Below, piece after piece: positions 5,380 to 45,285 of a stretch of DNA of 64,000 nucleotides; within the stretch, counting starts at the first letter, position 1, and every line of letters begins with the position of its first letter. The notes under the pieces are model-generated. The model ran no database searches. It saw only the letters and a list, made by a program, of their open reading frames with translations, and was not told the DNA's origin. The position numbers were made by a program, and so were the translations under genes. Source of the stretch: Blautia wexlerae DSM 19850 (GTDB taxonomy: Bacteria > Bacillota > Clostridia > Lachnospirales > Lachnospiraceae); contig NZ_CP102267.1 in NCBI RefSeq assembly GCF_025148125.1, positions 385,001-449,000 of the forward strand, written 5' to 3'.

Positions 5380-5406
5380 AATCCACACCTCATTCTTGGC
5401 AGAGTA

Positions 5407-5802: not shown

Positions 5803-5844
5803 AAGATTCCTCCAATCAATTAATATTTTATTTTCATTATATTT

Positions 5845-6540: not shown

Positions 6541-6585
6541 TTATAGTATAGTATATAAATGTACATGAAATGTCAATAAATATAT

Positions 6586-6637
6586 TACATGAATGTAGAA
6601 TGATTTTATTGACATCATTGTAGAATAATGATATTCT
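6586..6637 (+). promoter_or_regulatory. Divergent promoter with BlaI-type operator dyad
   Basis: TACAT-GA-ATGTA at 6586-6597 is a perfect 5+5 dyad of the TACA/TGTA kind. A near-consensus promoter follows: TTGACA at 6609-6614, 17 bp, TATTCT at 6632-6637, with a further TTGTA inside the spacer. It would drive the secreted-protein gene at 6736 and be repressed by the BlaI-like protein (inferred). Confidence 0.7.
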
Positions 6638-6735
6638 ATAACCAAACAGAAACAAGTATAAAAGTAGTACTATCAGTTTTTTTGCAGCGAAAGGAATATT
6701 TTAACAAACTGTCAAATTTAGAAAGAGGTGGTTTT

Positions 6736-7356: not shown

Positions 7357-7401
7357 TATATTAGGAAAAGAACACACATTAATAGAGTAAAATATATGAA
7401 A

Positions 7402-7437
7402 AAGGTCTTGGAACTTTTACAGTTTCAGGGCTTTTTT
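7402..7437 (+). terminator. Rho-independent terminator after the secreted-protein gene
   Basis: A 14-bp stem with four G-T pairs (AAGGTCTTGGAACT against AGTTTCAGGGCTTT), a 5-nt loop and a T-run. Confidence 0.75.
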
Positions 7438-27411: not shown

Positions 27412-27415
27412 ATAA

Positions 27416-28459: not shown

Positions 28460-28628
28460 AATCATTCATCCTTGTAACTTGACTGATCAAATTTACGGTG
28501 TTATACTCAGAAAAACCGAATTGTTTTTAAAAACTATTCGCATATACATTATAATACTTAAAAATTGTATAGTCAATTTCAATAAGCGTCAATTATGAGT
28601 AATGCGGAGAAAAGAAAGGAGAAAGTTT

Positions 28629-29753: not shown

Positions 29754-29799
29754 AGGTTAGGCATGGACGTGGAAAAGGGCTATACAATAAATAAATGAA

Positions 29800-29847
29800 A
29801 AAGAAACGCTGGTTCCGGTAAATACCGGTTCCGGCGTTTCTTTTTAT
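29800..29847. terminator. Bidirectional terminator between convergent genes
   Basis: AAAGAAACGC / GCGTTTCTTT with an inner CCGG-TAAATA-CCGG, T-run on the plus strand and A-run on the other side. Serves the binding-protein gene and the methyltransferase gene. Confidence 0.85.
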
Positions 29848-30704
29848 AATTTTCGGATCATTGCGCTTCCATGCAGATCGCATACAGGATCTGCAAACAG
29901 ATGGTTTTTCAGACAGAATTCCCCGACCGCTTTTCGACATCCGGAAAACTGTGTACTGTACACATCGTGGATCAGGAGAACTCCTCCGGTGGCCAGGCGT
30001 TCATAGAACAGAGGAAGTGCGGCTGCAGTTGGAGCATAGAGATCTGCGTCCAGAGATACAAAACAAAAAGTTTCATCTGTGACATCGGAAAAGGTATCCG
30101 GAAACCATCCTTTGTGGATCACAGTACGTGTAGGATCAGGCATAACATGAAGAACAGAGTCAATATCAGTAGAAGAAAAATCACCTGTTTTGGCACGGGA
30201 CAGATTACCGGAGGCTTCTATTGTGATATCCTTTTCTGAAAAGCCCTCAAAAGTATCAAAAAGATGGATTTTTCGGTCTGGAAAGGCTGCACTGATCAGG
30301 GAAGAAAATTCACCTCGAAAAACACCTAGTTCTGCAACATTTCCCGGAATATCCAATTGATAGATCTGCTCAGATAAAAGACGCATAACAGCAACCCGTG
30401 CGTCAAACATGCGAAGGACGGAGGGATCACGAAAAGGTCCGTGATAACCTAAGTTTTCCATCTGCTTTATCATAGAATTGCGCCGTTCTTCATCCAGAAC
30501 TCCCAGGATGACCAGATCCGGGAGAAGTGCTGCTGCAGTATCCGGAGAACAGACTGGAATATTTCCAATATATGATCCGTGTTTATGGGGGTCATTATCA
30601 GCAAAGCACAGGAGCTGACAGGGACTGCTGAGAAGTCTTGCGGTCATTTGTCCAATTTGTCCGGCACCAAATATTACAGTTTTATATACTGATTTTGCCA
30701 TCAT
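29844..30704 (-). CDS. TylF/MycF-like methyltransferase with N-terminal Rossmann-type domain
   Basis: 286 residues. The N-terminal ~90 residues (VIFGAGQIGQMTARLLS, CFADNDPHKHGSYIG, LPDLVILGVLDEERR) look like a nucleotide-sugar or dinucleotide-binding Rossmann unit. The rest matches macrocin-O-methyltransferase-like TylF: IPGNVAELGVFRGEFSSLI, IHLFDTFEGFS, FVSLDADLYAPTAAALPLFYERLATGGVLLIHDVYS. TylF proteins transfer methyl groups from SAM to sugar hydroxyls. It overlaps the xdhC stop by 4 nt (ATGA), so it belongs to the Mo-hydroxylase maturation operon. Its substrate there is unknown. Confidence 0.82.
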   Translation of the reverse strand: MMAKSVYKTVIFGAGQIGQMTARLLSSPCQLLCFADNDPHKHGSYIGNIPVCSPDTAAALLPDLVILGVLDEERRNSMIKQMENLGYHGPFRDPSVLRMFDARVAVMRLLSEQIYQLDIPGNVAELGVFRGEFSSLISAAFPDRKIHLFDTFEGFSEKDITIEASGNLSRAKTGDFSSTDIDSVLHVMPDPTRTVIHKGWFPDTFSDVTDETFCFVSLDADLYAPTAAALPLFYERLATGGVLLIHDVYSTQFSGCRKAVGEFCLKNHLFADPVCDLHGSAMIRKL

Positions 30705-31726
30705 TTTGATGTAGCCTTTCTGTCAGCGCGAACCTGGATCATCTGTCCTGTGATGGAGATGGCGATTTCAGCCGGTGTTTCTGCTTTGATCTCCAGTCCT
30801 ATAGGTGAGATGATATGGTTTAAATCTTGTTCATTAATGTTGTATTCTTCAATCAGACGGTGAAATACAGCAGCTTTTTTTGCACGGCTTCCAATGACGC
30901 CTATATAACATGCAGGTGTAGCGAGAAGCTGTGCCTGTACAATGGTATCATAGGAATGTCCACGTGTCATGACGCAGCAATAATCAGCAGCTGTAATAGA
31001 AACATACTGGTCCAGATGGTTGAAATCACAAAGTATTGTTTCAACTGCTCCTGGGAAAAGAGCAGGATTTGTAAATTCCGGCCGGTCATCCAGGACAACA
31101 CAGCGAAAATCAACGCTTGCAAGGATTGGGACAAGCTTTTGTGAGACATGTCCGCCGCCGAATACATAGACAGTTCCTGAGGTTCCAATCTGTTCAGAAA
31201 ACAGATCATAATCTTCACTGTGATATCGGTGTGGCTTTGTAGACAAAGAAGATAATACAGAAGAAGGAACATTGGCAGTTCCGATGAGACCGCATGCAGG
31301 ACTGTAGAGGCTCACACCGGAGGTGGTGAGAAGATCGCAGATCAGCCAGAAATCTTTTCGCTCTTCATAGAATTTTTCAGCAGTTTCCGTGATTTCCATA
31401 ATAATCGGATCGTTATGATCAAGATACTGGAAAAAGGCCGTAACATCACCACCACAGATCATACCAATATTTTCAACATCTTTATGATTCAGCCGGAATT
31501 CATGCTCGCAGGATTCCTTTTTTTCAAGAATATCCAATGCCATACATTCAGCACGATATTCTACAGCTCCACCTCCGATGGTTCCGGAAATTCTGCCGTT
31601 TTTTCCGACCAGCATGCGGGAACCGGCACCTCTTGGTGTAGACCCTGAGGATGCTGTAACGGAAACAAGTACAAGATCGTTTCCCTCCAGGAATTGTTGT
31701 TTTATTGTCTGAAATAATGTTCTCAT
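30701..31726 (-). CDS. xdhC: XdhC-family molybdenum-cofactor insertion/sulfuration protein
   Basis: 341 residues. The N-terminal XdhC/CoxI domain has VSVTASSGSTPRGAGSRMLV and GTIGGGAVE. The C-terminal Rossmann domain has VYVFGGGHVSQKLVPILAS, VVLDDRPEFTNPALFP and CCVMTRGHSYD, ending with AETPAEIAISITGQMIQVR. XdhC binds molybdopterin cofactor and promotes its sulfuration and insertion into xanthine dehydrogenase-type enzymes. It sits in the minus-strand operon and faces the divergent Mop-type oxidoreductase, which is its likely client. Confidence 0.92.
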   Translation of the reverse strand: MRTLFQTIKQQFLEGNDLVLVSVTASSGSTPRGAGSRMLVGKNGRISGTIGGGAVEYRAECMALDILEKKESCEHEFRLNHKDVENIGMICGGDVTAFFQYLDHNDPIIMEITETAEKFYEERKDFWLICDLLTTSGVSLYSPACGLIGTANVPSSVLSSLSTKPHRYHSEDYDLFSEQIGTSGTVYVFGGGHVSQKLVPILASVDFRCVVLDDRPEFTNPALFPGAVETILCDFNHLDQYVSITAADYCCVMTRGHSYDTIVQAQLLATPACYIGVIGSRAKKAAVFHRLIEEYNINEQDLNHIISPIGLEIKAETPAEIAISITGQMIQVRADRKATSK

Positions 31727-31795
31727 ATAATAAAATACCTCCTAACTAAATTAAGTGATTTTTCTGCTCCAGTTGTGTACGTCTGCCCGCCTGAA

Positions 31796-32869
31796 CTAAA
31801 GCGTGATATGGCAGAGTGATTGTATCATGTCCTGCAGTTTGCGGGCTTGTTCTAACTGCTGCTCATGAGCTTTGCGAGCTTCCGGACTTTTGCATTTACT
31901 CATGCTGTCGGCAAATCTTTTTTCTATGGTTACACGCTGTGTTTCCTGAATCAGTTTATCAGCCAGAAATACAATAGCTGCTTCATCCAGCGTGGCTTCC
32001 AACAGACCATGGTGCTGTGAAATGATCTGGCTGATCTCAGGATAACCTAACTGTAAGAAAAGTTCACCGCCTGTTTTCGCGTGATGCCTCTGAAGTCTGG
32101 CAATATCATGCAGAAGTGCACCGGAGCGAACAAGCTTCTGGTCAAAGATATAACCATTGGATTCCAGCATATTGCATAAACAACAGGCAAGTTCAGTAAC
32201 AGCATCACTGTGAGCTTGTACATGACGGGGCAGAGAAACAGCATTGCGAAGCCTGAGACATAGTCCGTCATTTAATTCAGGATGAGGCAGTATATAACTG
32301 GGATCAGAGAAAGAAATATTATTTTTTTCATTCACTTCCAGATGATAGTAAGAGCCGCAGGGCAGACGAAACCGCTGCCTGCTGTACATATCAGAATGTA
32401 ATGCATGTAAATAAGAAGAGATTACATCTGTATGAGTTACCACTGCAATATCACCTTCAGAAGCGCAAAGAATCTTATGAACTGCCTGCGAAAAGCGAAA
32501 ACCAGATGCAGCAGGAGTTTCTGCTCCCGGGATCGGATGATCAGGGTTATTCCCACGCGCTTTATAAATGTCCGGCCATCTCTGGCGTATTTCATCAAAA
32601 GAAAGGCCATCCCATTCTCCCAGATTTCGTTCTGACAGATCAGAAACAATGATATGTGGAAGCTCAGGTGCCATATGGCCTGCTGTCTCAACTGCTCTTA
32701 ACAAAGGACTGCAGTATACCCCTGATATTTTATCGGACAATTCTTCGTTAAGAAGGACTGCCTGCAGATGTCCAAGCATGGATAGAGAGAAATCTGTCTG
32801 TCCTACACAGTAAGAATGTTCATCCGGATACTGTGGTTTTCCATGCCGGACCAGATAAAGGTTACGCAT
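31796..32869 (-). CDS. Histidine phosphatase fused to HD-type domain
   Basis: 357 residues; GGAGGG lies 7 nt before the ATG. The N-terminal ~190 residues are a phosphoglycerate-mutase-like phosphatase: LYLVRHGKPQYP (His9), YCSPLLRAVETA, LSERNLGEWDG and VVTHTDVISSYL. Residues ~215-357 are an HD-like region: GALLHDIARLQRHHAKTGGELF, ISQHHGLLEATLDEAAIVFLADKL. The combination suggests two phosphohydrolase steps on one small phosphorylated metabolite. It overlaps the NTP-transferase stop by 8 nt. A role in cofactor maturation is inferred from this coupling. Confidence 0.85.
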   Translation of the reverse strand: MRNLYLVRHGKPQYPDEHSYCVGQTDFSLSMLGHLQAVLLNEELSDKISGVYCSPLLRAVETAGHMAPELPHIIVSDLSERNLGEWDGLSFDEIRQRWPDIYKARGNNPDHPIPGAETPAASGFRFSQAVHKILCASEGDIAVVTHTDVISSYLHALHSDMYSRQRFRLPCGSYYHLEVNEKNNISFSDPSYILPHPELNDGLCLRLRNAVSLPRHVQAHSDAVTELACCLCNMLESNGYIFDQKLVRSGALLHDIARLQRHHAKTGGELFLQLGYPEISQIISQHHGLLEATLDEAAIVFLADKLIQETQRVTIEKRFADSMSKCKSPEARKAHEQQLEQARKLQDMIQSLCHITL

Positions 32870-33791
32870 TTAAAAACCCTCCGAAACATTCTTCAAATAT
32901 TTTTTTTGAACAGGAACGTGTTTCTTCTGAAAAACGGGCATATCGTTTCAGAAATTCTTCGCCGTATGGTGTCAGTTCGCTATGGCTTCCCCTTGTACCG
33001 CCTTGGCTTCTGATGATCAGAGGTTCATGAAGCTGTGATTCCAGGGTATGGATCAGGTTCCAGCTGGTAGAATAGGAAATGTGCATGCGCTCACAGGCAT
33101 CGCGGACAGATCCTGTTTCATGGATCAGTGTAAGCAGCGAATAGAGTTTTTCATCAAAAAAAACTTTTTCCCGGGCTAGCTGAATATGGATTTCAGAACG
33201 GATCAGACTCTGGTTGTGTATGCGGAGAAGTTCAGCATAATCCTCTGGTGTATCAGCATCATGAATAATACCGGGATCCTTTACATTAAGATAATACATG
33301 GGTTCCCCGCAGTTATCCACAGCACCTTTAAGTCCTGATTTTCCGTCATCACTTAGGATGGAATCAATCAGTGTGGAACGGATCAGAATGGGATGACCGG
33401 GATTGCCATTACAGACCGGAGTTACAAGGGGACGCCCCAGAGAGAGCATTTGAGTGACTGTCTGGGCTGTGAACAGCGGAACATCAACAGGTGTAAAGAG
33501 TACCGTATCCACTTTGTCTTTCAGATACTCAAGTCCGATTCGGACAGAATCAAACATATGAGTGTTTGCATAGTTCTCATTTCGAAGAAAGACTACATTA
33601 TTGGAAGCCAGGTGGCATTCCAGAACATCTGCATGATATCCGGTTACCACTACTACTTTGGAGATTCCGGCCTGCCGGAAATTATTGATCACGCGCTGTG
33701 CGATGGAAATGGAGCCAAGCTGAAGCATGGGTTTAAAGTCTCCCATTCGTGATGATTTCCCCGCAGCCACGATGAGGGCGCCTGTCTGCAT
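32862..33791 (-). CDS. MocA/YgfJ-like nucleotidyltransferase fused to LysR/ModE-type HTH domain
   Basis: 309 residues; GAAGGAGG precedes the ATG. Residues 1-195 are a molybdopterin cytidylyltransferase-like domain: ALIVAAGKSSRMGDFKPML, VVTGYHADVL, LFTPVDVPLFTAQTV and GNPGHPILIRS. Residues ~205-305 match the ModE N-terminal/LysR HTH: FFDEKLYSLLTLIHETGSVRDACERMHISYSTSWNLI and EPLIIRSQGGTRGSHSELTPYG. MocA transfers CMP to molybdopterin; ModE-type HTHs bind DNA. The fusion could couple cofactor synthesis to transcription of this divergent locus. First gene of the minus-strand operon. Confidence 0.9.
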   Translation of the reverse strand: MQTGALIVAAGKSSRMGDFKPMLQLGSISIAQRVINNFRQAGISKVVVVTGYHADVLECHLASNNVVFLRNENYANTHMFDSVRIGLEYLKDKVDTVLFTPVDVPLFTAQTVTQMLSLGRPLVTPVCNGNPGHPILIRSTLIDSILSDDGKSGLKGAVDNCGEPMYYLNVKDPGIIHDADTPEDYAELLRIHNQSLIRSEIHIQLAREKVFFDEKLYSLLTLIHETGSVRDACERMHISYSTSWNLIHTLESQLHEPLIIRSQGGTRGSHSELTPYGEEFLKRYARFSEETRSCSKKIFEECFGGFLNA

Positions 33792-34001
33792 TTAGATACC
33801 TCCTTCTTTCAATGATATTATACAAATTTGATATTATTATAACATATAAAAGAATAAAAATAGTTAAAATTTTAAATAAAACAAAATAAAATTGTCTGCA
33901 ATATATAAAATAGCCAACTATTAATTATTTGTAATTTGTATAATTGTGCAAAATTATGGTAGTATGGATATATAAAATAACATGGACAGGAGAACTTTTT
34001 T
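33792..34001. promoter_or_regulatory. Divergent regulatory region of the Mo-hydroxylase system
   Basis: 210 bp, highly AT-rich, between the fused NTP-transferase/HTH gene and the plus-strand operon. A plus-strand ribosome-binding site (CAGGAGA) lies before 34002. Several T-rich/A-rich imperfect dyads are present, such as ATTTGTAATTTGTATAATTG at 33927-33946. A regulator such as the fused HTH would bind here (inferred). Confidence 0.5.
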
Positions 34002-34262
34002 ATGGATAAGATTTTTGAGATTACCGCAAAAGAAGTTACTGTACAGGTAAAAGATGAGCGTACAGGGGTTGTATATAGCCGGACGCTTCCCATCGATTAT
34101 TATGAGAATGCAAATGTTTTAAAGCTCAGCGGTGAGAATCTGGACGGGAGCAGCTCTTCCATTGTTTTCTATTCCGCCAGAGGAATAGAGAGACTGAAAG
34201 ATCTGACAGGCAGGGGAGCTGACCATGATTCGTGCGGAACACATAAGCCTGAAGATCAGTAA
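34002..34262 (+). CDS. Small protein of unknown function, first gene of the oxidoreductase operon
   Basis: 86 residues; CAGGAGA before the ATG. No family recognised. It consists of a beta-rich body (ITAKEVTVQVKDERTGVVYSRTLPIDY, VLKLSGENLDG, SIVFYSARGIERLKDLTG) and a short tail with His/Asp/Cys residues (DHDSCGTHKPEDQ) that could bind a metal. It lies 36 nt ahead of the aldehyde oxidoreductase. The position suggests an accessory or chaperone role; nothing in the sequence fixes it. Confidence 0.7.
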   Translation: MDKIFEITAKEVTVQVKDERTGVVYSRTLPIDYYENANVLKLSGENLDGSSSSIVFYSARGIERLKDLTGRGADHDSCGTHKPEDQ

Positions 34263-34298
34263 GATTGAAATGAATTTTTTTAAAAGGAGGAATGGGAC

Positions 34299-37061
34299 AT
34301 GATTAAAAAGACATTGAAGATTAATGGTGTTGAGAGAATACTTATTCTTGATAAGGATGAGACACTGGCGCAGGTGCTCCGTGATCACCTTCTTCTTACA
34401 GGATGTAAGATTGGCTGCGGTGAAGGTCACTGTGGAGCCTGTAATGTTATTATGAACGGAAAAGTCACAAGATCCTGTATCTACAAGATGAGCCGTGTTC
34501 CCGATCATGCAGAGATCACAACCATTGAAGGTGTGGGAACACTTTCTGATATGCATCCAATCCAGGTTGCATGGATGGCATATGGATGCGCACAGTGCGG
34601 TTTCTGTTCACCGGGATTTATTATTTCAGCAAAAGTGCTTCTGGACAATAATCCAAGTCCTACCCGTGAGGAGGTAAGAGACTGGTTTAACAAACAGCGT
34701 AATCTCTGCCGTTGTACAGGCTATAAGCCGCTGATCGATGCTACTATGGCTGCAGCAGCAGTTATGCGCGGCGAGATGACAAAGGAAGACCTTGTGTTCA
34801 AACAGACAGGTGATTCTATTGTTGGAACAAATTATATCCGTCCGTCAGCAGCACAGAAGGTAACAGGTACCTGGGATTTTGGTGCAGATGATGCATTAAA
34901 GATGCCATCAGGAACACTTCGCCTTGCTCTTACACAGGCAAAGGTTTCTCATGCAAATATTCTCAATATTGACACAGCAGAAGCAGAGAGTATGCCTGGT
35001 GTTGTTCGTGTTATCACAGCAAAAGATATTAAGGCAGCAGGCGGAACCAATAAGATCAATGGTCTTGTAATGCTTCCAAAACACAACAAGACAGACGGTT
35101 TCGAACGTCCTGTACTTTGCGATGAAAAAATCTTCCAGTTTGGTGATGCGATTGCCATCGTAGCTGCTGATACAGAAGAGCATGCAAGGGCAGCAGCAGA
35201 AGCAGTTAAAGTTGAGATCGAAGAGCTTCCTGCATATATGAATGCAATGGATGCCATCGCACCGGATGCGGCAGAGATTCATCCCGGTATTCCGAACGCA
35301 TTCTTTGAGACAAACTGTATCAAGGGTCCTGATTTTGACTGGGACAGCATTCCGGATTCACAGCAGGTTGAGATCGAATCTTACTGTTCACGTCAGCCTC
35401 ATCTTCATCTTGAGCCGGACTGCGGTTATGGTTACATTGACGAAGACGGTATGATAACTGTTCATTCCAAATCCATTGGTATCCATCTGCATATGCCTAT
35501 GATCGCTGATGGTATCGGTGTGCCAATGGAGAACTTACGAATTGTTCAGAACCATGCAGGAGGAACCTTTGGTTACAAGTTCTCTCCTACAAATGAGGCT
35601 CTGATCGGCGCTGCTGTTAAGATCCTTGAACGTCCTGTGTCTCTGGTATTTAATCAGTTCCAGAATATTACTTATACAGGAAAGAGATCCCCTGCATTTA
35701 TGAATATCAAGCTTGCAGCAGATGAACATGGTAAGCTTCTTGCACTCTGGGGCAATAACTATGTGGATCATGGTCCATACTCAGAATTCGGTGATCTGCT
35801 TACAATGAGACTTTCCCAGTTTACAGGTGCAGGCTATGGAATCAATTCTATCCGTAACAAATCTACAACAGTGTTTACAAACCATGCATGGGGTTCAGCA
35901 TTCCGTGCTTACGGATCTCCTCAGTCTTATATGGGATCTGAGATTGCGATAGATGTTCTGGCTGCAAAGATGGGAATCGACCCCTTCGATATCCGTGAAA
36001 TGAACTGTTACAAAGAATCAGAAGGCAGTACGATCCCTACAGGTTATCCGCCTGAAGTATACTGTGAAGAAGAACTGTTCAAGACAGCTCGTCCACTGTA
36101 TGAAGCAGCTAAGAAACGTGTGGCTGAAAAGAATGCAGCTTCTGATGGCAAGATCAAATATGGTATCGGTGTATCTCTCGGTGTATATGGCTGTGGTCTT
36201 GATGGTGTTGATACATCAAACGCATTTGCAGAGCTGAATCCGGATGGAACAGTTACAATGTATGCTGCATGGGAAGATCACGGACAGGGCGCTGATATGG
36301 GGGTTCTTGTATCATCACATGAAACACTTCGTCAGGCAGGAATCAGACCGGAACAGATCAAACTTGTTATGAATGATACCAAGACATGTCCTAATGCAGG
36401 TCCTGCAGGTGGATCACGTTCACAGGTTATGTCAGGTAATGCATGTCGTCTGGCAGCAGAAAACCTTGTGGCAGCCATGAAGAAAGAAGACGGAACCTTC
36501 CGTACTTATGATGAGATGGTGGCTGAGGGTCTTGCAACAAAATATGAAGGTAACTGGGTGACAACCTTCTGTGCAGATCATCCGATCGATCAGGATACAG
36601 CACAGGGTGATCCGTTTGCAACCTACATGTATACGATCTTCCTTCCGGAAGTTGCTGTTAATACAGAAACAGGTAAAGTTAAAGTTGAAAAATTCACCTG
36701 TGTGGCTGACGTAGGTACCATCATGAACAGACTTCTTGTAGAAGGCAACTTCTACGGCGGCCTTGTACAGGGTATTGGTCTTGCTCTTACAGAAGATTTC
36801 GAGGATCTGAACCATGATACTTCTCTGAAGAACTGTGGCATTCCGTATCCAAATGATGCGCCGGATGATATTGAACTTCATTTCAATGAAACATATCGCC
36901 CAAGCGGTCCTTACGGTGCTGCCGGCTGTGGGGAGGCTCCGCTGGATGCTCCTCATCCTGCAATCCTGAATGCGATCTACAATGCTACAGGCGCACGTAT
37001 CACACGTGTTCCTGCCCGTCCTGAAAAGGTTCTTGCAGCATTAAAGGAACTTGAGAAATAA
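34299..37061 (+). CDS. Mop-type molybdenum aldehyde oxidoreductase
   Basis: 920 residues, close to the ~907 of Desulfovibrio Mop. The N-terminal ferredoxin-like domain has Cys40, 45, 48 and 60 (CGEGHCGACN), and a second 2Fe-2S domain has Cys100, 103, 137 and 139 (CGFCSPGF, LCRCTGYKPL). The rest is the two-part molybdopterin domain with QPHLHLEPDCG, GGTFGYKFSP and the catalytic Glu879 in GAAGCGEAPLDAPHPA. No FAD domain. It oxidises an aldehyde or N-heterocycle with water-derived oxygen; the natural substrate is unknown. AAAGGAGG precedes the ATG. The flanking genes are typical maturation and electron-transfer partners. Confidence 0.93.
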   Translation: MIKKTLKINGVERILILDKDETLAQVLRDHLLLTGCKIGCGEGHCGACNVIMNGKVTRSCIYKMSRVPDHAEITTIEGVGTLSDMHPIQVAWMAYGCAQCGFCSPGFIISAKVLLDNNPSPTREEVRDWFNKQRNLCRCTGYKPLIDATMAAAAVMRGEMTKEDLVFKQTGDSIVGTNYIRPSAAQKVTGTWDFGADDALKMPSGTLRLALTQAKVSHANILNIDTAEAESMPGVVRVITAKDIKAAGGTNKINGLVMLPKHNKTDGFERPVLCDEKIFQFGDAIAIVAADTEEHARAAAEAVKVEIEELPAYMNAMDAIAPDAAEIHPGIPNAFFETNCIKGPDFDWDSIPDSQQVEIESYCSRQPHLHLEPDCGYGYIDEDGMITVHSKSIGIHLHMPMIADGIGVPMENLRIVQNHAGGTFGYKFSPTNEALIGAAVKILERPVSLVFNQFQNITYTGKRSPAFMNIKLAADEHGKLLALWGNNYVDHGPYSEFGDLLTMRLSQFTGAGYGINSIRNKSTTVFTNHAWGSAFRAYGSPQSYMGSEIAIDVLAAKMGIDPFDIREMNCYKESEGSTIPTGYPPEVYCEEELFKTARPLYEAAKKRVAEKNAASDGKIKYGIGVSLGVYGCGLDGVDTSNAFAELNPDGTVTMYAAWEDHGQGADMGVLVSSHETLRQAGIRPEQIKLVMNDTKTCPNAGPAGGSRSQVMSGNACRLAAENLVAAMKKEDGTFRTYDEMVAEGLATKYEGNWVTTFCADHPIDQDTAQGDPFATYMYTIFLPEVAVNTETGKVKVEKFTCVADVGTIMNRLLVEGNFYGGLVQGIGLALTEDFEDLNHDTSLKNCGIPYPNDAPDDIELHFNETYRPSGPYGAAGCGEAPLDAPHPAILNAIYNATGARITRVPARPEKVLAALKELEK

Positions 37062-37094
37062 CTGTCAGTATAATTTTATCATGTGATATAATAA

Positions 37095-37120
37095 GGGGAG
37101 ACGGGAGACTGTCTCCCCTT
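37095..37120 (+). other. Intra-operon hairpin
   Basis: GGGGAGAC / GTCTCCCC, 8 bp perfect, TTT after it, between the oxidoreductase gene and the next ORF. It could trim expression of the downstream genes or stabilise the upstream mRNA. Confidence 0.55.
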
Positions 37121-37144
37121 TGGAAATGAAAGGAGTATCGGGTT

Positions 37145-39439
37145 ATGACATATATACAGGAAAGAGGTTCCACTCATGTTTATCACGTAAATCGAATGTC
37201 AAAGGAAGAGATGGATCATATGATCAGCCTCTGTGTTCATGAACAGCCGGCGTACTGTGTTGCAGCCTGTCCTTTCAAAGCAGATACAAAAGAAATGCTG
37301 TTTTATGCTGCAAAAGGAAACTTTAAGAAAGCTCTGGCTATCTATGAAAAGATCACACCATTTCCCATGATCCTCTGTAACGGATGTACTGCACCATGTG
37401 AGGAAAAATGCAGACTCTGTGAGCTGGGTGATGGCATATCCATACGTGAAGTAGAGCGTGCCATTGTACGATATGGGGAACCTGGAAAACGGAGCAGTGT
37501 ATTTCGTATCAGAAAGAAAAAAAAGGCTGTGATCTTTGGCTCAGGATTGTTCCCGCTGTTTCTTGCAGGGGAACTGGAAAAGAAGATGTATCCTGCAACC
37601 ATTTACTGTCAGGAGAAAGATTATGAAGCCTATATTGCAGCAGCAGCTCCGGAGCTTTTGGAATCAGATCGCAAAAATGAGGTAAAACGTCTCAGTTCCA
37701 TGGACCTTTCCTTTGAATTCGGATGCAGTCTTGACCTTCCGTTTATCAGAGCGAAAATGAAGGAGGCAGATGTGGTCTGTGCTTCAGAGGAGGTGGCCAA
37801 AAAGCTGGCTCCAGAGGAAACAGCAGACGCAGAGATCATGCTGAGAGAACAGGCGGGAATTGTCAGCGGTCCGGTCCGGTCTGTGATGGATGCAGCTTTT
37901 GCTGCAAAGAGAGCTGCCCTGACTGTAGACCTCCTTGTACAGAATCTTTCGCCCCACAGCAACAGAGGCAGTGAAGGAGCAGTTACCACCAGGCTCTATA
38001 CAAATATGGACGGGATGAAAGGCTCCAAAAAGATTCCCTGCAGCACAGATGGATATTCAAAAGAAGAAGCTGTTGAGGAAGCAAAGCGATGCATTCAGTG
38101 TCACTGTGATGAGTGTATGAAAAGCTGTGTCTATTTAAGGGAATATAAAAAGCATCCGGGTCTTCTTGCACGTGAGATTTATAATAATACCCAGATCATT
38201 ATGGGAGATCACCAGATGAATAAACCGATGAATTCCTGTTCACTCTGCGGACAGTGTACTGTAACCTGTCCAAATGGGTTTGATATGAGCCAGGTCTGCA
38301 AATCTGCAAGAGAAAACATGGTATCTACAGACAAAATGCCTCTGGCACCTCATGAATTTGCACTGATGGATATGCTGTTCTCCAATTCGGAGGCTTTCTT
38401 ATGCAGACCTCAGCCGGGATATGAAACCTGCAGATATGTATTTTTCCCAGGATGTCAGGCAGGAGCTATAGCGCCGGATGTTGTCACAGAGGCATATGAG
38501 GATCTGTGCAGGAGGACAGAGGGCGGTGTTGCTCTGATGCTGGGATGCTGTGGTGCTATCAGTGAATGGGCAGGACGCTATGAAATGACAGAAAAGGTAA
38601 ATGAACAGCTGAAGCAGGAGCTTGCAAAACTGGGAGATCCTATGATTATAGCAGGCTGTCCAAGCTGTATGAAACAGTTAAAAGAGAGTCTTGGCGCCAA
38701 AGTCACAGGAATCTGGGAGATCTTAAAGGAAATCGGACTTCCCGGACAGGCAAAAGGACTGGAGATACCTGTTGCAATACATGATGCCTGCGGTGCCAGG
38801 GGAGATACACAGACACAGGATACAATAAGAGAGCTTCTTGCAGATATGGGGTGCACTGTTGTAAATACAGAATATTCCAGAGATCTGTCTCCCTGCTGCG
38901 GATACGGCGGACTGACTGCCTACGCTAATAAAGAGATGGCAGATAAAATGACAGAAAAGTGTCTGGAACGATCCGATTCCCCATATATAACGTACTGCAT
39001 GGCATGCAGGGACCGATTTGTCAGGGAAGGCAGGGAATCCAGACATATCCTGGAACTTCTGTATGGTATAAATGCCGCCAATATGCCGGATATCAGTGAG
39101 AAACGCTACAACCGGCTTGAGCTAAAAGAGAAGCTTTTAAAAAATATATGGAATGAGGAACTGATGATGGAGAAAAAAGATTATACCGTTGCATATACAG
39201 AAGATGCCATCAGTATGATGGATGAACGTATGATCCTGAAAAGCGATGTGGAGCGTGTATTATCAGATTACAGAGAAAATCAGGAAGCGATCTTTGATGA
39301 AGAGACAAAAGAACTGGTGACAAGGAGCAGACTTGGAAATGTTACATTCTGGGTGAGATTTGTGGAAACAGAAGAAGGGTATCTGGTACGCAGAGCATAC
39401 AGTCATAGAATGAATATTATGAAAAGGGTGGGACAGTAA
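37145..39439 (+). CDS. Iron-sulfur dicluster / CCG-domain electron-transfer protein (DVU_1558-like)
   Basis: 764 residues. The N-terminal part resembles the glutamate-synthase small-subunit 4Fe-4S domain (CVHEQPAYCVAACPFKADT, CNGCTAPCEEKCRLC). It is followed by a reduced pyridine-nucleotide-disulfide-oxidoreductase-like stretch (KKAVIFGSGLFPLFLAGELE) and a two-cluster ferredoxin (CIQCHCDECMKSCVYL, CSLCGQCTVTCPNGF). Two heterodisulfide-reductase CCG regions follow (FFPGCQAG, MLGCCGAISEW; DACGARGDTQ, CCGYGGLTAYANKEMA). The C-terminal ~70 residues form a small extra domain. It fits electron transfer to or from the Mop-type enzyme. Overlaps the next gene by 1 nt. Confidence 0.85.
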   Translation: MTYIQERGSTHVYHVNRMSKEEMDHMISLCVHEQPAYCVAACPFKADTKEMLFYAAKGNFKKALAIYEKITPFPMILCNGCTAPCEEKCRLCELGDGISIREVERAIVRYGEPGKRSSVFRIRKKKKAVIFGSGLFPLFLAGELEKKMYPATIYCQEKDYEAYIAAAAPELLESDRKNEVKRLSSMDLSFEFGCSLDLPFIRAKMKEADVVCASEEVAKKLAPEETADAEIMLREQAGIVSGPVRSVMDAAFAAKRAALTVDLLVQNLSPHSNRGSEGAVTTRLYTNMDGMKGSKKIPCSTDGYSKEEAVEEAKRCIQCHCDECMKSCVYLREYKKHPGLLAREIYNNTQIIMGDHQMNKPMNSCSLCGQCTVTCPNGFDMSQVCKSARENMVSTDKMPLAPHEFALMDMLFSNSEAFLCRPQPGYETCRYVFFPGCQAGAIAPDVVTEAYEDLCRRTEGGVALMLGCCGAISEWAGRYEMTEKVNEQLKQELAKLGDPMIIAGCPSCMKQLKESLGAKVTGIWEILKEIGLPGQAKGLEIPVAIHDACGARGDTQTQDTIRELLADMGCTVVNTEYSRDLSPCCGYGGLTAYANKEMADKMTEKCLERSDSPYITYCMACRDRFVREGRESRHILELLYGINAANMPDISEKRYNRLELKEKLLKNIWNEELMMEKKDYTVAYTEDAISMMDERMILKSDVERVLSDYRENQEAIFDEETKELVTRSRLGNVTFWVRFVETEEGYLVRRAYSHRMNIMKRVGQ

Positions 39440-39660
39440 TGGCAGTAGAGAGAACATATTATACCATTGATCCTGAGGGAAAGCTGACCTGCATGAAATG
39501 CAAGGTTCCTCTTGTAAAGGGAAAAGCAAAATTTATGTATCTGGAGAACGGTTTTCCTGTTGAGATGCCGGTCTGTCCCAAATGTGGCTTTGTCTATGTT
39601 CCGGAAGAGCTGGCTCTTGGAAAGGTTTTGGCAGTGGAACGTGCACTGGAGGATAAATAG
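39439..39660 (+). CDS. Small redox protein, Cys-rich (DVU_1557-like)
   Basis: 73 residues. Two Cys pairs, MKCKVPL and VCPKCGFVYVPEEL, suggest a zinc-ribbon or rubredoxin-like metal site; related proteins in other bacteria are reported as selenoproteins. Here Cys codons are used throughout, no in-frame TGA. The start overlaps the previous stop (TAATG), and the next gene starts directly after its TAG. Likely a component of the same pathway; biochemical role unknown. Confidence 0.8.
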   Translation: MAVERTYYTIDPEGKLTCMKCKVPLVKGKAKFMYLENGFPVEMPVCPKCGFVYVPEELALGKVLAVERALEDK

Positions 39661-40194
39661 ATGAACAGACACCCCGGAGGGGAAGAGCAGACAATTCATC
39701 TTCTGAAAAGCATAGAATTGAAAAAAGGAATGAAAGCTCTGGATCTGGGAGCAGGAGAGGGAGAGACCGTGCGGATCATGAAAGCATTTGGTCTGAATGT
39801 GCAGGGTGTGGATCTTGCTCCGCGAAGCAGTGAGGTGCAGCAGGGAGATTTTCTGACCCTTCAGTATGCAGCAGACAGTATGGATCTCTGTATCAGCCAG
39901 TGTGCATTTTTTGTCAGCAGAGATCAGAAAAAGGCAGTCTCTGAATGCTGGCGTGTACTGAAAAAGGGAGGATTTCTTTTGCTGTCAGATCTGGATCCGG
40001 GCAATCTTCTGGAAATTGTGAAAGAAACAGGGTTTACGATTCTCTGTCAGGAGGATCAGACTGCTCTCTGGAGAGAATATTATCTGGAAGCAATCTGGAA
40101 TGATTCATTCTGCTGCGAGGATCATAAGCTTCTGCAGAAAGAATACAAAGGCAGAAAAATAGGCTATACCATGGTGGTTGGCAGAAAGGAGTAA
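39661..40194 (+). CDS. SAM-dependent methyltransferase (DVU_1556-like)
   Basis: 177 residues with a class I Rossmann fold: motif I LDLGAGEGETVRIM near 27-40, acidic motif QGVDLAPRS, and later MDLCISQCAFFVS and CWRVLKKGGFLLLSDLDPG. It starts with NRHPGGEEQTIHLL, which I recall from the DVU_1556 family. It lies between the small redox protein and the C-GCAxxG-C-C protein without gaps. The methyl acceptor is not known; a small thiol or pathway intermediate is a guess. Confidence 0.85.
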   Translation: MNRHPGGEEQTIHLLKSIELKKGMKALDLGAGEGETVRIMKAFGLNVQGVDLAPRSSEVQQGDFLTLQYAADSMDLCISQCAFFVSRDQKKAVSECWRVLKKGGFLLLSDLDPGNLLEIVKETGFTILCQEDQTALWREYYLEAIWNDSFCCEDHKLLQKEYKGRKIGYTMVVGRKE

Positions 40195-40197
40195 TGT

Positions 40198-40629
40198 ATG
40201 GATCTTTACGAAAGAATAATGGAATTAGGTAGCATGGGATATCATTGTTCACAGATCATTATGATCATGACTCTGGAAACCATAGGAGAGGAAAATCCAC
40301 AGCTTGTAAAGGCAATGGGAGGCCTTGGCGGAGGAATCGGTTACTGTGGAGATACCTGCGGATGTCTGACAGGAAGTGCCTGTGCCATCGGATATTTTCT
40401 CGGAAATCTGGCTCCTGAGGAGAAGGAAGATGCACAGATGAAACCGGCTGTACAGGAATTATATCAGTGGTTCCGCCAGAAGACAGAGGAAGAATTCGGA
40501 GCTTTTTACTGTAAGGATATCACTCATCTGGACTGGGGTGTGATCATGGAGAAATGTCCTGGACTTATTGCAGATACTTATACAAAAGTTATGGAAATTC
40601 TGACAGAGCGGGAGGTACTGAAGCTTTGA
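40198..40629 (+). CDS. C-GCAxxG-C-C family protein (DVU_1555-like)
   Basis: 143 residues; AGAAAGGAG lies before the ATG. The family Cys pattern is present: YHCSQIIM near the start, then GGLGGGIGYCGDTCGCLTGSACAIG, and a late FYCKDITHLDWG and KCPGL. These proteins probably bind a metal or cluster and are often found near redox or selenium-linked enzymes. The start of the radical SAM gene overlaps its stop by 4 nt. Confidence 0.88.
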   Translation: MDLYERIMELGSMGYHCSQIIMIMTLETIGEENPQLVKAMGGLGGGIGYCGDTCGCLTGSACAIGYFLGNLAPEEKEDAQMKPAVQELYQWFRQKTEEEFGAFYCKDITHLDWGVIMEKCPGLIADTYTKVMEILTEREVLKL

Positions 40630-41951
40630 TCACCATCGGCAAAACAAAGAGTGTCTGTCCGGAATGTATGAAGGTAGTTCCTGCCATAAAAGGTATCGGT
40701 GAAGACGGGATCTATCTGGTAAAGGAATGCAATGCTCATGGAAAATTTCAGACCCTGATCTGGGAAGGAAATGCAGCAGATTATCTTTCCTGGGGAAGAG
40801 AAAATCTCTCAGCAGAAACGCCTGTAAATCCGAAGGTTAAAGAAAAATCCTGTCCGGATAATTGCGGACTCTGTGAGGAACATGAAAGAAAAGGCTGCTG
40901 TATGATCCTGGAAGTTACAAAACGCTGTAATATGCATTGTCCTGTCTGCTTTGCTTCAGCAGGAGAAGACAGGGAAAAGGGAGATATTCCCATCTGTGAA
41001 ATAGAAAAACAGTATGATTTTCTGATGGCTCACGGAGGTCCCTTTAATATACAGCTTTCAGGAGGAGAACCAACCATGAGGGACGATCTGCCTGAAATCA
41101 TACATATGGGAAGAGAAAAAGGATTTACATTTTTTCAGTTAAATACCAATGGGATCCGGCTTGCCAGGGAGGAGGGGTATGCCGGAAAGCTGAAAAAAGC
41201 AGGACTGAATACAGTATTTCTTCAGTTTGACGGTGTGACAGATCAGGTTTATGAGACTTTACGTGGACAGGCTATGATGGAACTGAAGAAAAAGGCGGTC
41301 TTAAACTGCTCAGAAGCAGAGCTTGGTATTGCTCTTGTGCCGGTCATTGCGCCGGGAGTAAATGATATGCAGGTAGGGGATATCCTGAAATTTGGTCTGG
41401 ATCATATGCCCTTTGTTCGTGGCGTACATTTTCAGCCTATCAGTTATTTTGGCAGATGTTCCCAGAAGCGCCCCCAAAATCCCATCACCATACCAAAGAT
41501 GCTGAGGCTTATTGAAGAACAGACAGAGGGACTGATGAAAATTGAGGATTTTGCAGGCGGCGGCGCAGAGAATCCCTACTGCTCCTTTCATGCAAGTTAT
41601 CTGAGAAAAGGAGAGCAGGAACTGAAGCTTCTTGAAAAAAAATCAGGAAAAGGATGCTGCTGTACTACCAGTGATGATTCCAGGCAGTATGTGGAAAATC
41701 AGTGGAGCTACAGTACAAAAACCTATGATGAGGGAGAAATGACACAGACAGATGCGCTAGATGAGTTTCTGATCCGGATACATAATGAAACCTTTGCAGT
41801 ATCAGGTATGATCTTTCAGGATGCCTGGAATCTGGATCTTGACCGTCTGAAACGCTGTTATATCTGTGAAGTGGATCCTGATCACGGAATGGTACCGTTC
41901 TGTGCATATAATCTGACTAATCTGAAAGGAACATATTTATACAGAAAGTGA
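40626..41951 (+). CDS. Radical SAM protein of the Mo-hydroxylase gene set (TrsS-like)
   Basis: 441 residues from a TTG at 40626, which follows GGGAGG and overlaps the previous stop; the open frame runs back to 40554. A Cys-rich N-terminus (SVCPECMKVVP, SCPDNCGLCEEH, GCCMILEV) precedes the radical SAM loop CNMHCPVCFA and GGEP-type LSGGEPTMRDDL. A second cluster region (ENPYCSFHA, GKGCCCTTSDD) and CYICEVD/FCAYN follow. A similar family in other genomes is named radical SAM (seleno)protein TrsS; here only Cys. It probably makes or modifies a small molecule used with the oxidoreductase. Chemistry unknown. Confidence 0.85.
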   Translation: MITIGKTKSVCPECMKVVPAIKGIGEDGIYLVKECNAHGKFQTLIWEGNAADYLSWGRENLSAETPVNPKVKEKSCPDNCGLCEEHERKGCCMILEVTKRCNMHCPVCFASAGEDREKGDIPICEIEKQYDFLMAHGGPFNIQLSGGEPTMRDDLPEIIHMGREKGFTFFQLNTNGIRLAREEGYAGKLKKAGLNTVFLQFDGVTDQVYETLRGQAMMELKKKAVLNCSEAELGIALVPVIAPGVNDMQVGDILKFGLDHMPFVRGVHFQPISYFGRCSQKRPQNPITIPKMLRLIEEQTEGLMKIEDFAGGGAENPYCSFHASYLRKGEQELKLLEKKSGKGCCCTTSDDSRQYVENQWSYSTKTYDEGEMTQTDALDEFLIRIHNETFAVSGMIFQDAWNLDLDRLKRCYICEVDPDHGMVPFCAYNLTNLKGTYLYRK

Positions 41952-43144
41952 AACGATCCAATATAGATGCAATGATCTGTAGGCAGGAAAAAATTACAGA
42001 TATTACAAGGGAAACAATAAACAAAATACAGCTGGATAAACTGAATGCTGTTCTGAAAAGAGAAAAAGAAAGGCAGGGATTTTATAGAGATCTGCCGGAA
42101 AGGCTGGAAAGCCTTGATGATCTGAAAACCCTTCCCTTTACAACGGAATCCGACCTTGCTCAGAAAGGGGGCAGGATGTTACTGTGCTCTCAGGGAGAAA
42201 TACAGAGGATCATTTCAGAACAGACAAGCGGAACAACAGGTGCAGGTAAACGTGTATTTTATACAGAAGGAGATTGTGAACATACCATAGAACTTTTTAT
42301 GGCCGGACTTGGTGAGTTTATTTATCCGGGAAGCAGGACTATGGTTGCCATGCCGTTTTCAGGTCCTTCTGGACTGGGAGAACTGATCGCAGACGCAATC
42401 AGACGTATAGGAGCACATCCCCTTTTAACCGGGAACAATAAAACCTATGGTGAGTTAAAAACAATTCTGGAAGAGGAGCGGCCGGATACTTATGTAGGTA
42501 TGCCGACAGCACTGCTTTCCATGCTCAGAATGTGTGGAAAAGGCAGTATAAAGAGAGCACTGATATCAGGGGATGCCTGTCCGGAAACAGTAATGAAAGC
42601 AATAGAAAAAATTTTGGGAACACCACTCTGGCCTCATTATGGTTCCAGAGAGATGGGACTTGGGGGTGCGATTTGCTGTCAGGCTCATGAGGGCATGCAC
42701 ATGAGGGAGAATCATTGTATCACAGAGATCATAGATAAAGAGGGAAATGTTCTGCCTGACGGTCAATGGGGAGAACTGGTGATCACAACCATTGGGATGG
42801 AGGCACAGCCTCTGATCAGATACAGGACCGGCGATCATACACGTATCATCCCCGGAAAATGTATCTGCGGAAGTGAGGTAAGGCGTCTGGATTTTGTAAG
42901 GCGCATCGACCAGTCCAAAAGTATGAGAGAAATGGATGAATTACTGTTTCAGTTTCCGAAACTGGTAGATTACTGTGTAAGGAGTGTTGGAGGGAAAAAA
43001 GAAATCACAGCACTTTTTATATCAGATAACGGAGAAGAACTGATCAGAAATGTCTGCACAGAGAAGAATATTATTTCTTTGGACTGCAGAAAAGCAGAAT
43101 GGAGCGATAGGGCATTGTATCCTGCGAAACGTATTATTTTATAG
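41948..43144 (+). CDS. AMP-dependent ligase / phenylacetate-CoA-ligase-like enzyme (DVU_1553-like)
   Basis: 398 residues from a GTG that overlaps the preceding stop (GTGA). Adenylate-forming motifs: EQTSGTTGAGKRVFYTEGD (P-loop), HYGSREMGLGG, GELVITTIGMEAQPLIRYRTGD and KSMREMDELLFQFPKLVDY. It activates a carboxylic acid with ATP and probably joins it to CoA or another nucleophile. Aldehyde oxidation by the Mop-type enzyme would produce an acid, so a link is plausible but inferred. Last plus-strand gene before the shared terminator. Confidence 0.87.
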   Translation: MKRSNIDAMICRQEKITDITRETINKIQLDKLNAVLKREKERQGFYRDLPERLESLDDLKTLPFTTESDLAQKGGRMLLCSQGEIQRIISEQTSGTTGAGKRVFYTEGDCEHTIELFMAGLGEFIYPGSRTMVAMPFSGPSGLGELIADAIRRIGAHPLLTGNNKTYGELKTILEEERPDTYVGMPTALLSMLRMCGKGSIKRALISGDACPETVMKAIEKILGTPLWPHYGSREMGLGGAICCQAHEGMHMRENHCITEIIDKEGNVLPDGQWGELVITTIGMEAQPLIRYRTGDHTRIIPGKCICGSEVRRLDFVRRIDQSKSMREMDELLFQFPKLVDYCVRSVGGKKEITALFISDNGEELIRNVCTEKNIISLDCRKAEWSDRALYPAKRIIL

Positions 43145-43156
43145 AGAAACTATTAG

Positions 43157-43206
43157 AAAACAGAACGAAACCCATTGACTATCAGTCGGATTTCGTTCTG
43201 TTTTTT
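43157..43206. terminator. Bidirectional terminator
   Basis: AAAACAGAACGAAA / TTTCGTTCTGTTTT, 14 bp with a 20-nt loop; T-rich on both sides. Separates the convergent ligase and DUF5714 genes. Confidence 0.88.
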
Positions 43207-43219
43207 ATTTTATGAATAG

Positions 43220-43957
43220 TTATTTGTTCACAGGATAATACGGACAGTCCTCTCTGATACATTCTTTATTATCTTCAAAATATTTACATAGTACAGAAGA
43301 CAGCGGAATCTTTACAGAGCTGAACTGCCTGTAAAACCTGATCGCTTCTTCAATAGCAATTCTGCTGGTGCGTTTACAGCAGCGCGGACCACCAACATCA
43401 GCCAGTTTGGATAAAATAACAGAGACAAGCTTCTGAGGAAAGGGCCATGCATCCTTATGGAGGGGACCGGATCCGGTCATAACAGACATAAAGATTCCGG
43501 CACCTGCTGCTGCACCACACACTCCCCAGTAACCGCAGGTACCACCGGGAACCTGCCTCGCTCTTTTACAGATTTCAGATAATGCGGTATCGTAATTCAT
43601 ACGCTCTCCATTATTGCGAAGTGCAGTCAGAAGAACACTGGGAACAATGGCATGATGTTCAGGTCCATGCATGTGGACAGAAGGAAGGTCCATGATCTCT
43701 TCCAGAAGCAGCAGGGGATCCTTCTCTGTGCTGCTTCTGAGGGCTATGATCACCGGTATATAAGTACCATAGCTGTGACAGGCATCACAGACAAAATGGC
43801 CATTTTCACAGACAGCATTTGTCAGCTGCTCTTTGTGGCAGATGCTGCAGGTTTTCACAGAACTTTCGACGCTATATGTGACCGGTGCTCCACAGATCAG
43901 GCAGCCTGAAAAATGTTCTGTCTCTCCACAACAGCAGGAATTATTTGTATTATCCAT
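43220..43957 (-). CDS. DUF5714-like Cys-rich protein
   Basis: About 245 residues from the ATG at 43957 (43969 is in frame and overlaps the upstream stop). The start is Cys-rich: CCCGETEHFSGCLICGAP, then CSICHKEQLT, CENGHFVCDACHS, a double zinc-ribbon arrangement. The main part has LPSVHMHGPEHHAIVPSVLLTALRN, RQVPGGTCGYWGVCGAAAGAGIFMS and RCCKRTSRIAIEEA, as I recall for DUF5714. Such genes often accompany the DVU_1551-1558-like set. Role unknown. It lies 5 nt after the DAHP synthase gene and could be co-transcribed with it. Confidence 0.8.
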   Translation of the reverse strand: MDNTNNSCCCGETEHFSGCLICGAPVTYSVESSVKTCSICHKEQLTNAVCENGHFVCDACHSYGTYIPVIIALRSSTEKDPLLLLEEIMDLPSVHMHGPEHHAIVPSVLLTALRNNGERMNYDTALSEICKRARQVPGGTCGYWGVCGAAAGAGIFMSVMTGSGPLHKDAWPFPQKLVSVILSKLADVGGPRCCKRTSRIAIEEAIRFYRQFSSVKIPLSSVLCKYFEDNKECIREDCPYYPVNK

Positions 43958-43962
43958 AAAAA

Positions 43963-44994: not shown

Positions 44995-45285
44995 GATCTG
45001 TTTCCTCCATATAAGTACATGCAGGTCTTTGATAATGCCGGAACTCAGGAATACTTTATACCTGACCGGACTGCCTGCACATTTTCCTTTATAAGTATAA
45101 CATGGTGTTATCTAAAATTCCAGTACTTTAACACTTTAAACTGACATATTTTGAGAGGATGTAATCAGACCGTTTTTTATGCCTGTTTCTTAGCTTCACA
45201 AAAATGCTTTCAGATGTTACAATCAAATAAAAGATATGAGGAAAGAAATATCAAAAGAATACCAAAGAAAGTCGGGGTGAAGATT

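Follow-up and report, generated by a model that had tools for sequence, protein, structure and literature searches.

How is a molybdenum hydroxylase put to use when its gene lies among genes for cofactor maturation, electron transfer, methyl transfer, radical S-adenosylmethionine (SAM) chemistry and acid activation? This question is raised by a gene cluster at positions 29844-43969 of a 64,000-nucleotide stretch of the Blautia wexlerae DSM 19850 genome (RefSeq assembly GCF_025148125.1, the single 4.69-Mb contig NZ_CP102267.1, positions 385,001 to 449,000). The whole stretch is called the window here and its coordinates are used throughout; fetched loci are numbered L### and sampled genomes G###, G000 being the window's own genome. 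The cluster comprises twelve genes on two divergent arms, four on the minus strand (29844-33791) and eight on the plus strand (34002-43144), together with one convergent DUF5714 gene (43220-43969). A preliminary description of this DNA had listed at least twelve genes of the kinds named above on two such arms, which is borne out, and had called them a complete DVU_1551-1558-like pathway with unknown substrate, which is qualified below.

We propose, with a probability of about 0.5, that the cluster encodes one pathway from an aldehyde to an activated acid, built around a cytoplasmic molybdenum aldehyde oxidoreductase (AOR) of the MOP type. Homology points to synthesis and delivery of a cytosine-dinucleotide cofactor by the MocA-like, HD, phosphatase and XdhC proteins and to conversion of the aldehyde into an acid by the AOR, which would pass electrons via two [2Fe-2S] clusters towards a dicluster/CCG iron-sulfur protein; the small protein DVU_1557 possibly relays electrons between the two. 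The steps beyond these are put forward more tentatively. A PaaK-like ligase would convert the acid into an activated form, acyl-AMP or acyl-CoA. A methyltransferase, a C-GCAxxG-C-C protein and TrsS (these three and the ligase are called the module below) may modify this same compound, either ahead of its oxidation or afterwards; TrsS would presumably work on an unactivated carbon by a radical mechanism, like its homologue Tes (tetraether lipid synthase). TrsS would be an accessory step, because one genome (G101) keeps the remaining cluster without it.

Conservation of the Cluster

Scores are given as bits obtained/NCBIfam curated cut-off. The plus arm begins with an 86-amino-acid protein without Pfam or NCBIfam match (34002-34262), followed by the AOR (34299-37061; NF045668, 1519/1100 bits), the dicluster/CCG electron-transfer protein (37145-39439; NF045663, 798/530; PF14691, PF13534, PF02754), the DVU_1557 family protein with four cysteines, a redox protein or zinc ribbon (39439-39660; NF045645, 94/60), a DVU_1556-like SAM methyltransferase (39661-40194; NF045667, 123/155; PF08241), the DVU_1555 family C-GCAxxG-C-C protein (40198-40629; NF045669, 157/103; PF09719), the radical SAM protein TrsS (40626-41951; NF045646, 606/490) and the DVU_1553 family PaaK-like AMP-forming ligase (41948-43144; NF045666, 344/300). 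The seven genes from the AOR to the ligase (34299-43144), hereafter the core genes, are all adjacent, and six exceed their cut-offs, the exception being DVU_1556. To this extent the set is complete as first described; DVU_1551, however, is split and re-fused, and both DVU_1556 and the XdhC-AOR factor (299/350 bits) score below their cut-offs.

Presence of these genes, defined as a score over the NCBIfam cut-off, was followed in a sample of 291 Clostridia genomes and another of 64 Blautia genomes. The preliminary description had held that scattering of the genes in other genomes would tell against a unit; they are not scattered. AOR and TrsS occur in the same 11 of the 291 Clostridia genomes (Fisher P 4e-20, uncorrected for kinship), which fall in seven families, and in the same 7 of the 64 Blautia genomes. 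The dicluster protein and the ligase mark the same 11 Clostridia genomes and G101 in addition. AOR-like matches below the cut-off were found in two further genomes, G101 (793/1100 bits, truncated where its contig ends) and G199 (520 bits, with internal stops). Weaker matches to TrsS (E <= 0.001, 279/291 genomes) and to the ligase (E <= 1e-50, 181/291) are taken to represent radical SAM proteins of other kinds and relatives of PaaK.

Gene neighbourhoods agree with these counts. In tblastn searches with the window proteins, the seven core genes lay together in all eight named bacterial TrsS loci (L005-L012), counting L010, whose AOR is cut by a contig end and lies in three pieces; the remaining 13 loci from the same TrsS search are archaeal, their TrsS relatives are treated as Tes, and no other cluster gene accompanies them. 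The seven were likewise together in 10 of the 15 over-cut-off TrsS loci of the Clostridia sample, window included. The gene linkage is therefore not due to chance, and the cluster is one conserved unit. Thus the earlier view that the locus holds more than one enzyme needs stands as far as a conserved larger unit is concerned, and the word pathway is kept here as a proposal.

Predicted Aldehyde Oxidation and Electron Transfer

The AOR covers positions 1-905 of the 905-position NF045668 profile and matches PDB 1dgj, which we take to be the D. desulfuricans AOR, at 1123 bits and the D. gigas structures 1sij/1vlb at 1093 bits, end to end. The aldehyde-pocket residues F425, F494, L497, R533 and Y535 of the D. 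gigas AOR are identical in the window protein. The catalytic Glu869 named for the D. gigas enzyme (PMC3877041) is also conserved in the alignment. Oxidation of aldehydes by the window AOR is well supported by this full-length homology to crystallised enzymes of Desulfovibrio, from which two [2Fe-2S] clusters and a cofactor of the molybdopterin cytosine dinucleotide type would also be expected. The phrase "unknown substrate" was accordingly too strong where the class of substrate is concerned, and holds for the physiological aldehyde and for the reaction of the module. It is reported in the portion of PMC3877041 available to us that the D. gigas AOR accepts short and long aliphatic as well as aromatic aldehydes; heterocyclic compounds are described as not accepted in the corresponding part of PMC10223205, a finding with which heterocyclic aldehydes as substrates remain compatible. 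In one genome, G277, the AOR (L090, 2315-5041) has one in-frame TAG, which sequencing error and decay both fit.

Despite crystal structures and decades of enzymology, the physiological role of the D. gigas AOR is still a proposal, and detoxification has been considered, according to the sections of PMC3877041 that were available. Together with the wide aldehyde range of that homologue, this would fit an AOR that merely clears aldehydes in general, with the module as a loosely linked passenger; the conservation of the module alongside the AOR across seven Clostridia families speaks against such an arrangement, which we regard as improbable.

The likely electron acceptor of the AOR, the dicluster protein, has 25 cysteines that are invariant among 11 aligned sequences. 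Its Rossmann motif GxGxxG is intact in only six of the 11 (L056, L057, L059, L061, L067 and L093); in the proteins of the window, L009, L011, L089 and L066 the motif is degenerate and a later GG motif is absent. Given this degeneration, the NCBI name pyridine nucleotide-disulfide oxidoreductase probably misfits the protein of the window lineage, and NAD(P) is unlikely to be its direct acceptor. The identity of DVU_1557 to the window protein ranks second to or equal with that of the AOR in most loci, being 81% in L009 and 44-64% in most of the distant loci, with the exception of L068 (39%), and its four cysteines are invariant in 15 sequences. Because its identity tracks that of the AOR and these cysteines do not change, contact of DVU_1557 with the AOR is suggested. 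The 86-amino-acid protein was aligned in 10 copies and is conserved directly upstream of the AOR; a Foldseek search with its AlphaFold model (pLDDT 65) gave no fold match at E <= 0.001.

Pathway or Maturation Module

Several loci depart from the common arrangement. L060 has no ligase, L067 has no AOR within the fetched stretch, and G277 has a 4-kb TrsS contig without other cluster genes, its cluster sitting on another contig. In G244 five core genes run to the end of the AOR contig, whereas TrsS sits on different contigs. The G101 locus runs in the order AOR, dicluster protein, DVU_1557, methyltransferase, C-GCAxxG protein and ligase, with just 165 bases at the place of TrsS, and no TrsS over the cut-off was found in the rest of this genome, a 99% complete draft in 270 contigs. 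Extra AOR copies were found in G090, accompanied solely by the dicluster protein and DVU_1557 (L093), and in G184, accompanied solely by XdhC (L094) about 22 kb from the TrsS of that genome. From the G101 locus, the TrsS genes on separate contigs and the extra AOR copies it follows that TrsS is the least fixed part of the cluster and that the AOR with its electron-transfer genes can duplicate separately.

The extra AOR copies also weigh against a single pathway, as do the points that follow. L062 and L064 hold TrsS pairs with a ligase and no adjoining AOR, both genomes having an AOR elsewhere. DVU_1557 may be no more than a zinc ribbon with a structural role, as its AlphaFold model (pLDDT 70) hints: Foldseek returned nothing at E <= 0.001, and the weak matches, at E 0.4 and worse, were zinc ribbons. 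The proposal is drawn from genes, families and linkage, and co-occurrence by itself fits a maturation role equally well.

In such a role the four module proteins would modify or protect the AOR itself, the pterin cofactor or the redox partner of the enzyme, and the entire cluster would serve to assemble a single enzyme. A maturation or repair module of this kind would be expected to pair with the AOR at the genome level, as seen in both samples, and to adjoin cofactor genes, as it does here; moreover, in the Clostridia sample the over-cut-off AOR copies without an adjoining module (G090, G184) sit in genomes that have one elsewhere. Against this stand the TrsS-less cluster of G101 and the divergence of the module proteins, which is faster than that of the AOR. 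Identity between the window and L009 is 88% for the AOR, 81% for DVU_1557, 67% for TrsS, 64% for the dicluster protein, 61% for the ligase, 58% for the 86-amino-acid protein, 49% for the C-GCAxxG protein and 42% for the methyltransferase. In addition, the D. gigas homologue has a pyranopterin cytidine dinucleotide cofactor and needs no sulfido ligand, and no other modification is mentioned in the available portion of PMC3877041. Maturation or repair is therefore judged a possible but rather doubtful explanation, and the aldehyde-to-activated-acid pathway is retained as the working proposal.

Cofactor Genes and the Rearranged DVU_1551

The minus arm reads, from the centre outward, as a MocA-like nucleoside triphosphate (NTP) transferase fused to a ModE-type helix-turn-helix (HTH) domain (32862-33791), a CobC-like histidine phosphatase fused to an HD domain (31796-32869; PF00300, PF01966), the XdhC-family AOR maturation factor (30701-31726; NF045664, PF13478, PF02625) and a TylF-type methyltransferase (29844-30704). 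The DVU_1551 model NF045665 covers an NTP transferase and an HD domain, and no intact DVU_1551 is present in the window: its first half matches the HTH fusion (profile 2-200, 197/315 bits) and its HD half the phosphatase fusion (profile 202-358, 131/315 bits), in two genes. The HTH fusion also matches TIGR03310 (125/186 bits), TIGR00637 (54/98.5), PF12804 and PF00126. In L056, L057 and L059 the NTP transferase and HD domains form a single gene and the phosphatase is separate. Such swapping of domains among loci suggests that the DVU_1551-type domains serve one process.

The fusion of NTP transferase and HTH is common, both domains being found in 115 of the best 120 of 2109 relatives (E <= 1e-30). 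The layout is BirA-like, and by analogy the window protein could sense how much cofactor is available and repress the divergent operon to which it belongs accordingly. A search for repeats and an alignment of six sequences revealed no assignable operator for it in the AT-rich divergent intergenic region (33792-34001), only short inverted repeats, and promoter-like sites over 29700-45100 were at the level of shuffled sequence (31 found, 30.0 expected). Among the literature matches listed, none dealt with a MocA-HTH fusion.

Other cofactor genes are found near some clusters. Proteins with molybdopterin-synthesis domains adjoin some of them (four tested, TIGR00177, 65-69/85 bits), modABC-type genes are present in L061 and a MOSC/MoCF protein in L012. 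The window's genome has three MoCF_biosynth proteins, which accords with the cofactor synthesis that the cluster would need.

TrsS and the Ligase

TrsS probably starts at the TTG at 40626, as in a 441-residue database relative, and not at the mechanically predicted ATG at 40554. It contains the radical SAM motif CNMHCPVC and matches Tes (PDB 7tol) over residues 1-305 (E 4e-77) and again at the C-terminus, with the cysteine motifs kept; the second cysteine of a C-terminal CC pair, present in Tes and in L056-L059, is tyrosine in the window. The window protein is 96% identical to TrsS of a Blautia wexlerae strain, just as the AOR is 98-99% identical to the AORs of four named Blautia records, and close TrsS relatives are abundant in public genome and metagenome sets, where two clusters (99% and 89% identical) have 4,107 and 10,004 members. 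A search of plasmids for TrsS found only relatives of about 32% identity, in 6 records.

The likeness to Tes opens the possibility of lipid chemistry, in which TrsS would join alkyl chains, the AOR oxidize long-chain aldehydes and the ligase activate fatty acids, giving a membrane-spanning lipid. The extended match to 7tol, the acceptance of long-chain aldehydes by the D. gigas AOR (as far as PMC3877041 was available) and a glycolipid synthase-like gene (211/400 bits) near the TrsS pair of L062 are in keeping with it. On the Tes model NF045702, however, TrsS reaches only 342/450 bits. In a 31-row tree, which has long branches and open forks and gives a grouping rather than a rooted history, a branch (94/88) separates the TrsS rows from both archaeal Tes and the Tes-like proteins found in L069-L071. 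The neighbours of these latter three include Lgt-type, ICMT/PEMT-type and DUF4395 proteins. Lipid synthesis by the cluster is thus considered unlikely. The L069-L071 proteins, whose neighbourhoods were scanned in L069 and compared by similarity in L070 and L071, are themselves candidates for bacterial membrane-lipid coupling enzymes.

The best PDB match of the ligase is phenylacetate-CoA ligase (4r1l, E 8e-30), and this likeness fits both the proposed activation of an acid produced by the AOR and the aromatic aldehydes that the D. gigas AOR is reported to accept in the accessible part of PMC10223205. More specifically, and tentatively, in Blautia the Tes-family TrsS may build or cut the carbon skeleton of a non-lipid compound that enters or leaves through the AOR and the PaaK-like ligase. 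If this is true, the Tes family would gain a non-lipid chemistry and a classic MOP-type AOR a physiological route in human-gut Blautia. Separately, tandem TrsS genes were observed in L062 (586-7202) and L064 (4655-12282); L062 also carries an HGD-D-like protein, which has a 24% relative in L064. In L066 (7843-8976, G263) a cysteine desulfurase-like gene (TIGR01977, 304/377 bits) lies between the C-GCAxxG protein and TrsS.

Selenium

The preliminary description regarded cysteine at all likely selenocysteine positions as a feature separating this cluster from selenium versions. This distinction is weak, since 6 of the 11 cluster genomes have no selA over the cut-off; versions without selenocysteine are ordinary. 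A selenocysteine version of TrsS in the window was itself discarded, the frame being open without TGA and the genome having no selA match over the cut-off. When 15 window proteins were compared with 46 loci by tblastn (272 alignments, E up to 1e-3), no in-frame TGA was found, in a search that would overlook a TGA terminating an alignment; the sole in-frame stops were the TAG in the AOR of L090 and, close to where the dicluster match in L068 ends, a TAA. A stricter pass over 39 loci also found no in-frame TGA, and the stretch after the stop codon was read as well for 19 TrsS rows. The co-occurrence profile with selenium genes that had been suggested was run for selA, which passes its cut-off in five of the 11 genomes with the cluster and in 41 of the 280 others (P 0.018).

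Nevertheless, the window's genome is not selenium-free. It has selD (404/125 bits) near 1.45 Mb (L103), about 1.0 Mb from the cluster, and near 2.33 Mb (L101) YqeB (361/220), YqeC (199/73), a selenium-dependent xanthine dehydrogenase (1204/830) and YgfK (1382/835); YqeB, YqeC and the dehydrogenase lie together about 1.9 Mb from the cluster. This pattern of selD, YqeB and YqeC without selA is that of the orphan-SelD trait, as described in the portions of PMC2276186 and PMC2432076 available to us. The selD gene may also serve a selenouridine system. The orphan pattern leaves room for an AOR with labile selenium supplied by the SelD/YqeB system, and the second-best NCBIfam model for the AOR is indeed the selenium-dependent xanthine dehydrogenase TIGR03311, with its cut-off missed (406/830 bits). 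None of the selenium genes is within the cluster, though, and the D. gigas AOR functions without a sulfido ligand, so far as the part of PMC3877041 in hand describes it; a selenium-dependent AOR is thus held to be very improbable.

Genes Bordering the Cluster

The TylF-type (Methyltransf_24) methyltransferase at the outer end of the minus arm (PF05711, 74.5 bits; PF13578) has a NeuD-like N-terminal stretch (TIGR03570, weak, 24/161 bits). Among the fetched loci it is confined to Blautia, and in L007 and L008 its start adjoins XdhC. At the other end, the DUF5714 gene (43220-43969, minus strand) runs opposite to the plus arm and adjoins a DAHP synthase gene. Its product is MbdU-like without selenocysteine (PF18978, 212 bits; NF045648, 147/600 bits) and is a probable associate of the cluster, the gene adjoining the ligase in L005-L008, L010, L011 and L062.

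A FecCD-type ABC transporter (26605-29753; ATPase and permease on the minus strand, binding protein on the plus strand; PF00005, PF01032, PF01497) is a possible associate. L092 has a transporter of this type as well (4450-7426), beside the TrsS/ligase pair of G244 and roughly 0.6 kb away from the ligase gene. The binding protein matches HI_1472 (3psa), which we take to be a molybdate binder, at E 4e-11, and matches proteins that bind iron-type or unstated ligands better (4pag, E 6e-35); molybdate import by this transporter is only a guess. An Rfam scan of 26000-46500 gave no match.

Comparison with Known Systems

The preliminary description considered the system insufficiently described, which is half right. 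Most components have NCBIfam models, and a 2026 review (PMC13188914), in the part available, counts TrsS among selenoproteins and cites Haft and Tolstoy 2025. A 2026 preprint, to judge from the part at hand (PMC13404670), concerns PaoABC and not the window AOR. No paper assigning a product to the cluster was found among the literature matches listed, subscription papers mostly and Haft and Tolstoy 2025 lying outside the search; the string "DVU155" does not occur in the main text of the D. vulgaris fitness paper, and no mop neighbourhood is given in the accessible part of the D. gigas genome paper. The same matches contained no co-occurrence count, rearranged DVU_1551, degenerate Rossmann motif, TrsS-less version or selenium correction, only the MocA-HTH fusion having been searched for singly.

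The cluster corresponds to a gene block catalogued before from other bacteria, here in rearranged form. It shares with the NCBIfam DVU_1551-DVU_1557/TrsS set, whose gene order in Desulfovibrio vulgaris was inferred from the DVU locus tags, the DVU_1553, DVU_1555, DVU_1557, TrsS, dicluster and AOR models, all of which pass their cut-offs. It differs in the divided DVU_1551, in DVU_1556 and XdhC below the cut-off, in the altered Rossmann motif of the dicluster protein, and in the addition of the TylF-type methyltransferase and the 86-amino-acid protein. Selenium-dependent molybdenum hydroxylase loci likewise have a MocA-like NTP transferase, an XdhC-type factor and a fused Fe-S/Mo enzyme; in contrast to them, the cluster is without YqeB, YqeC and SelD, which are encoded elsewhere in the genome.

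Compared with the MOP-type AORs of Desulfovibrio (1vlb/1sij of D. gigas; 1dgj), the window enzyme is alike over its full length, as a single chain with 2Fe-2S and molybdenum domains and with the catalytic glutamate and pocket residues, whereas it comes from a different phylum and is known here from its sequence. The pairing of such an AOR relative with TrsS, ligase and methyltransferase across Clostridia makes its physiological role a question for gene deletion. With Tes (7tol), TrsS has in common the radical SAM core, the N-terminal ribbon, further cysteine motifs and the C-terminal PFCxYN block; unlike Tes, it is shorter (441 versus 526 residues), falls below the cut-off of the Tes model, stands in a separate group of the tree and has a molybdenum neighbourhood. 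The cluster thereby places a radical SAM enzyme of the Tes family, one that is not clearly a lipid synthase, in a defined gene neighbourhood.

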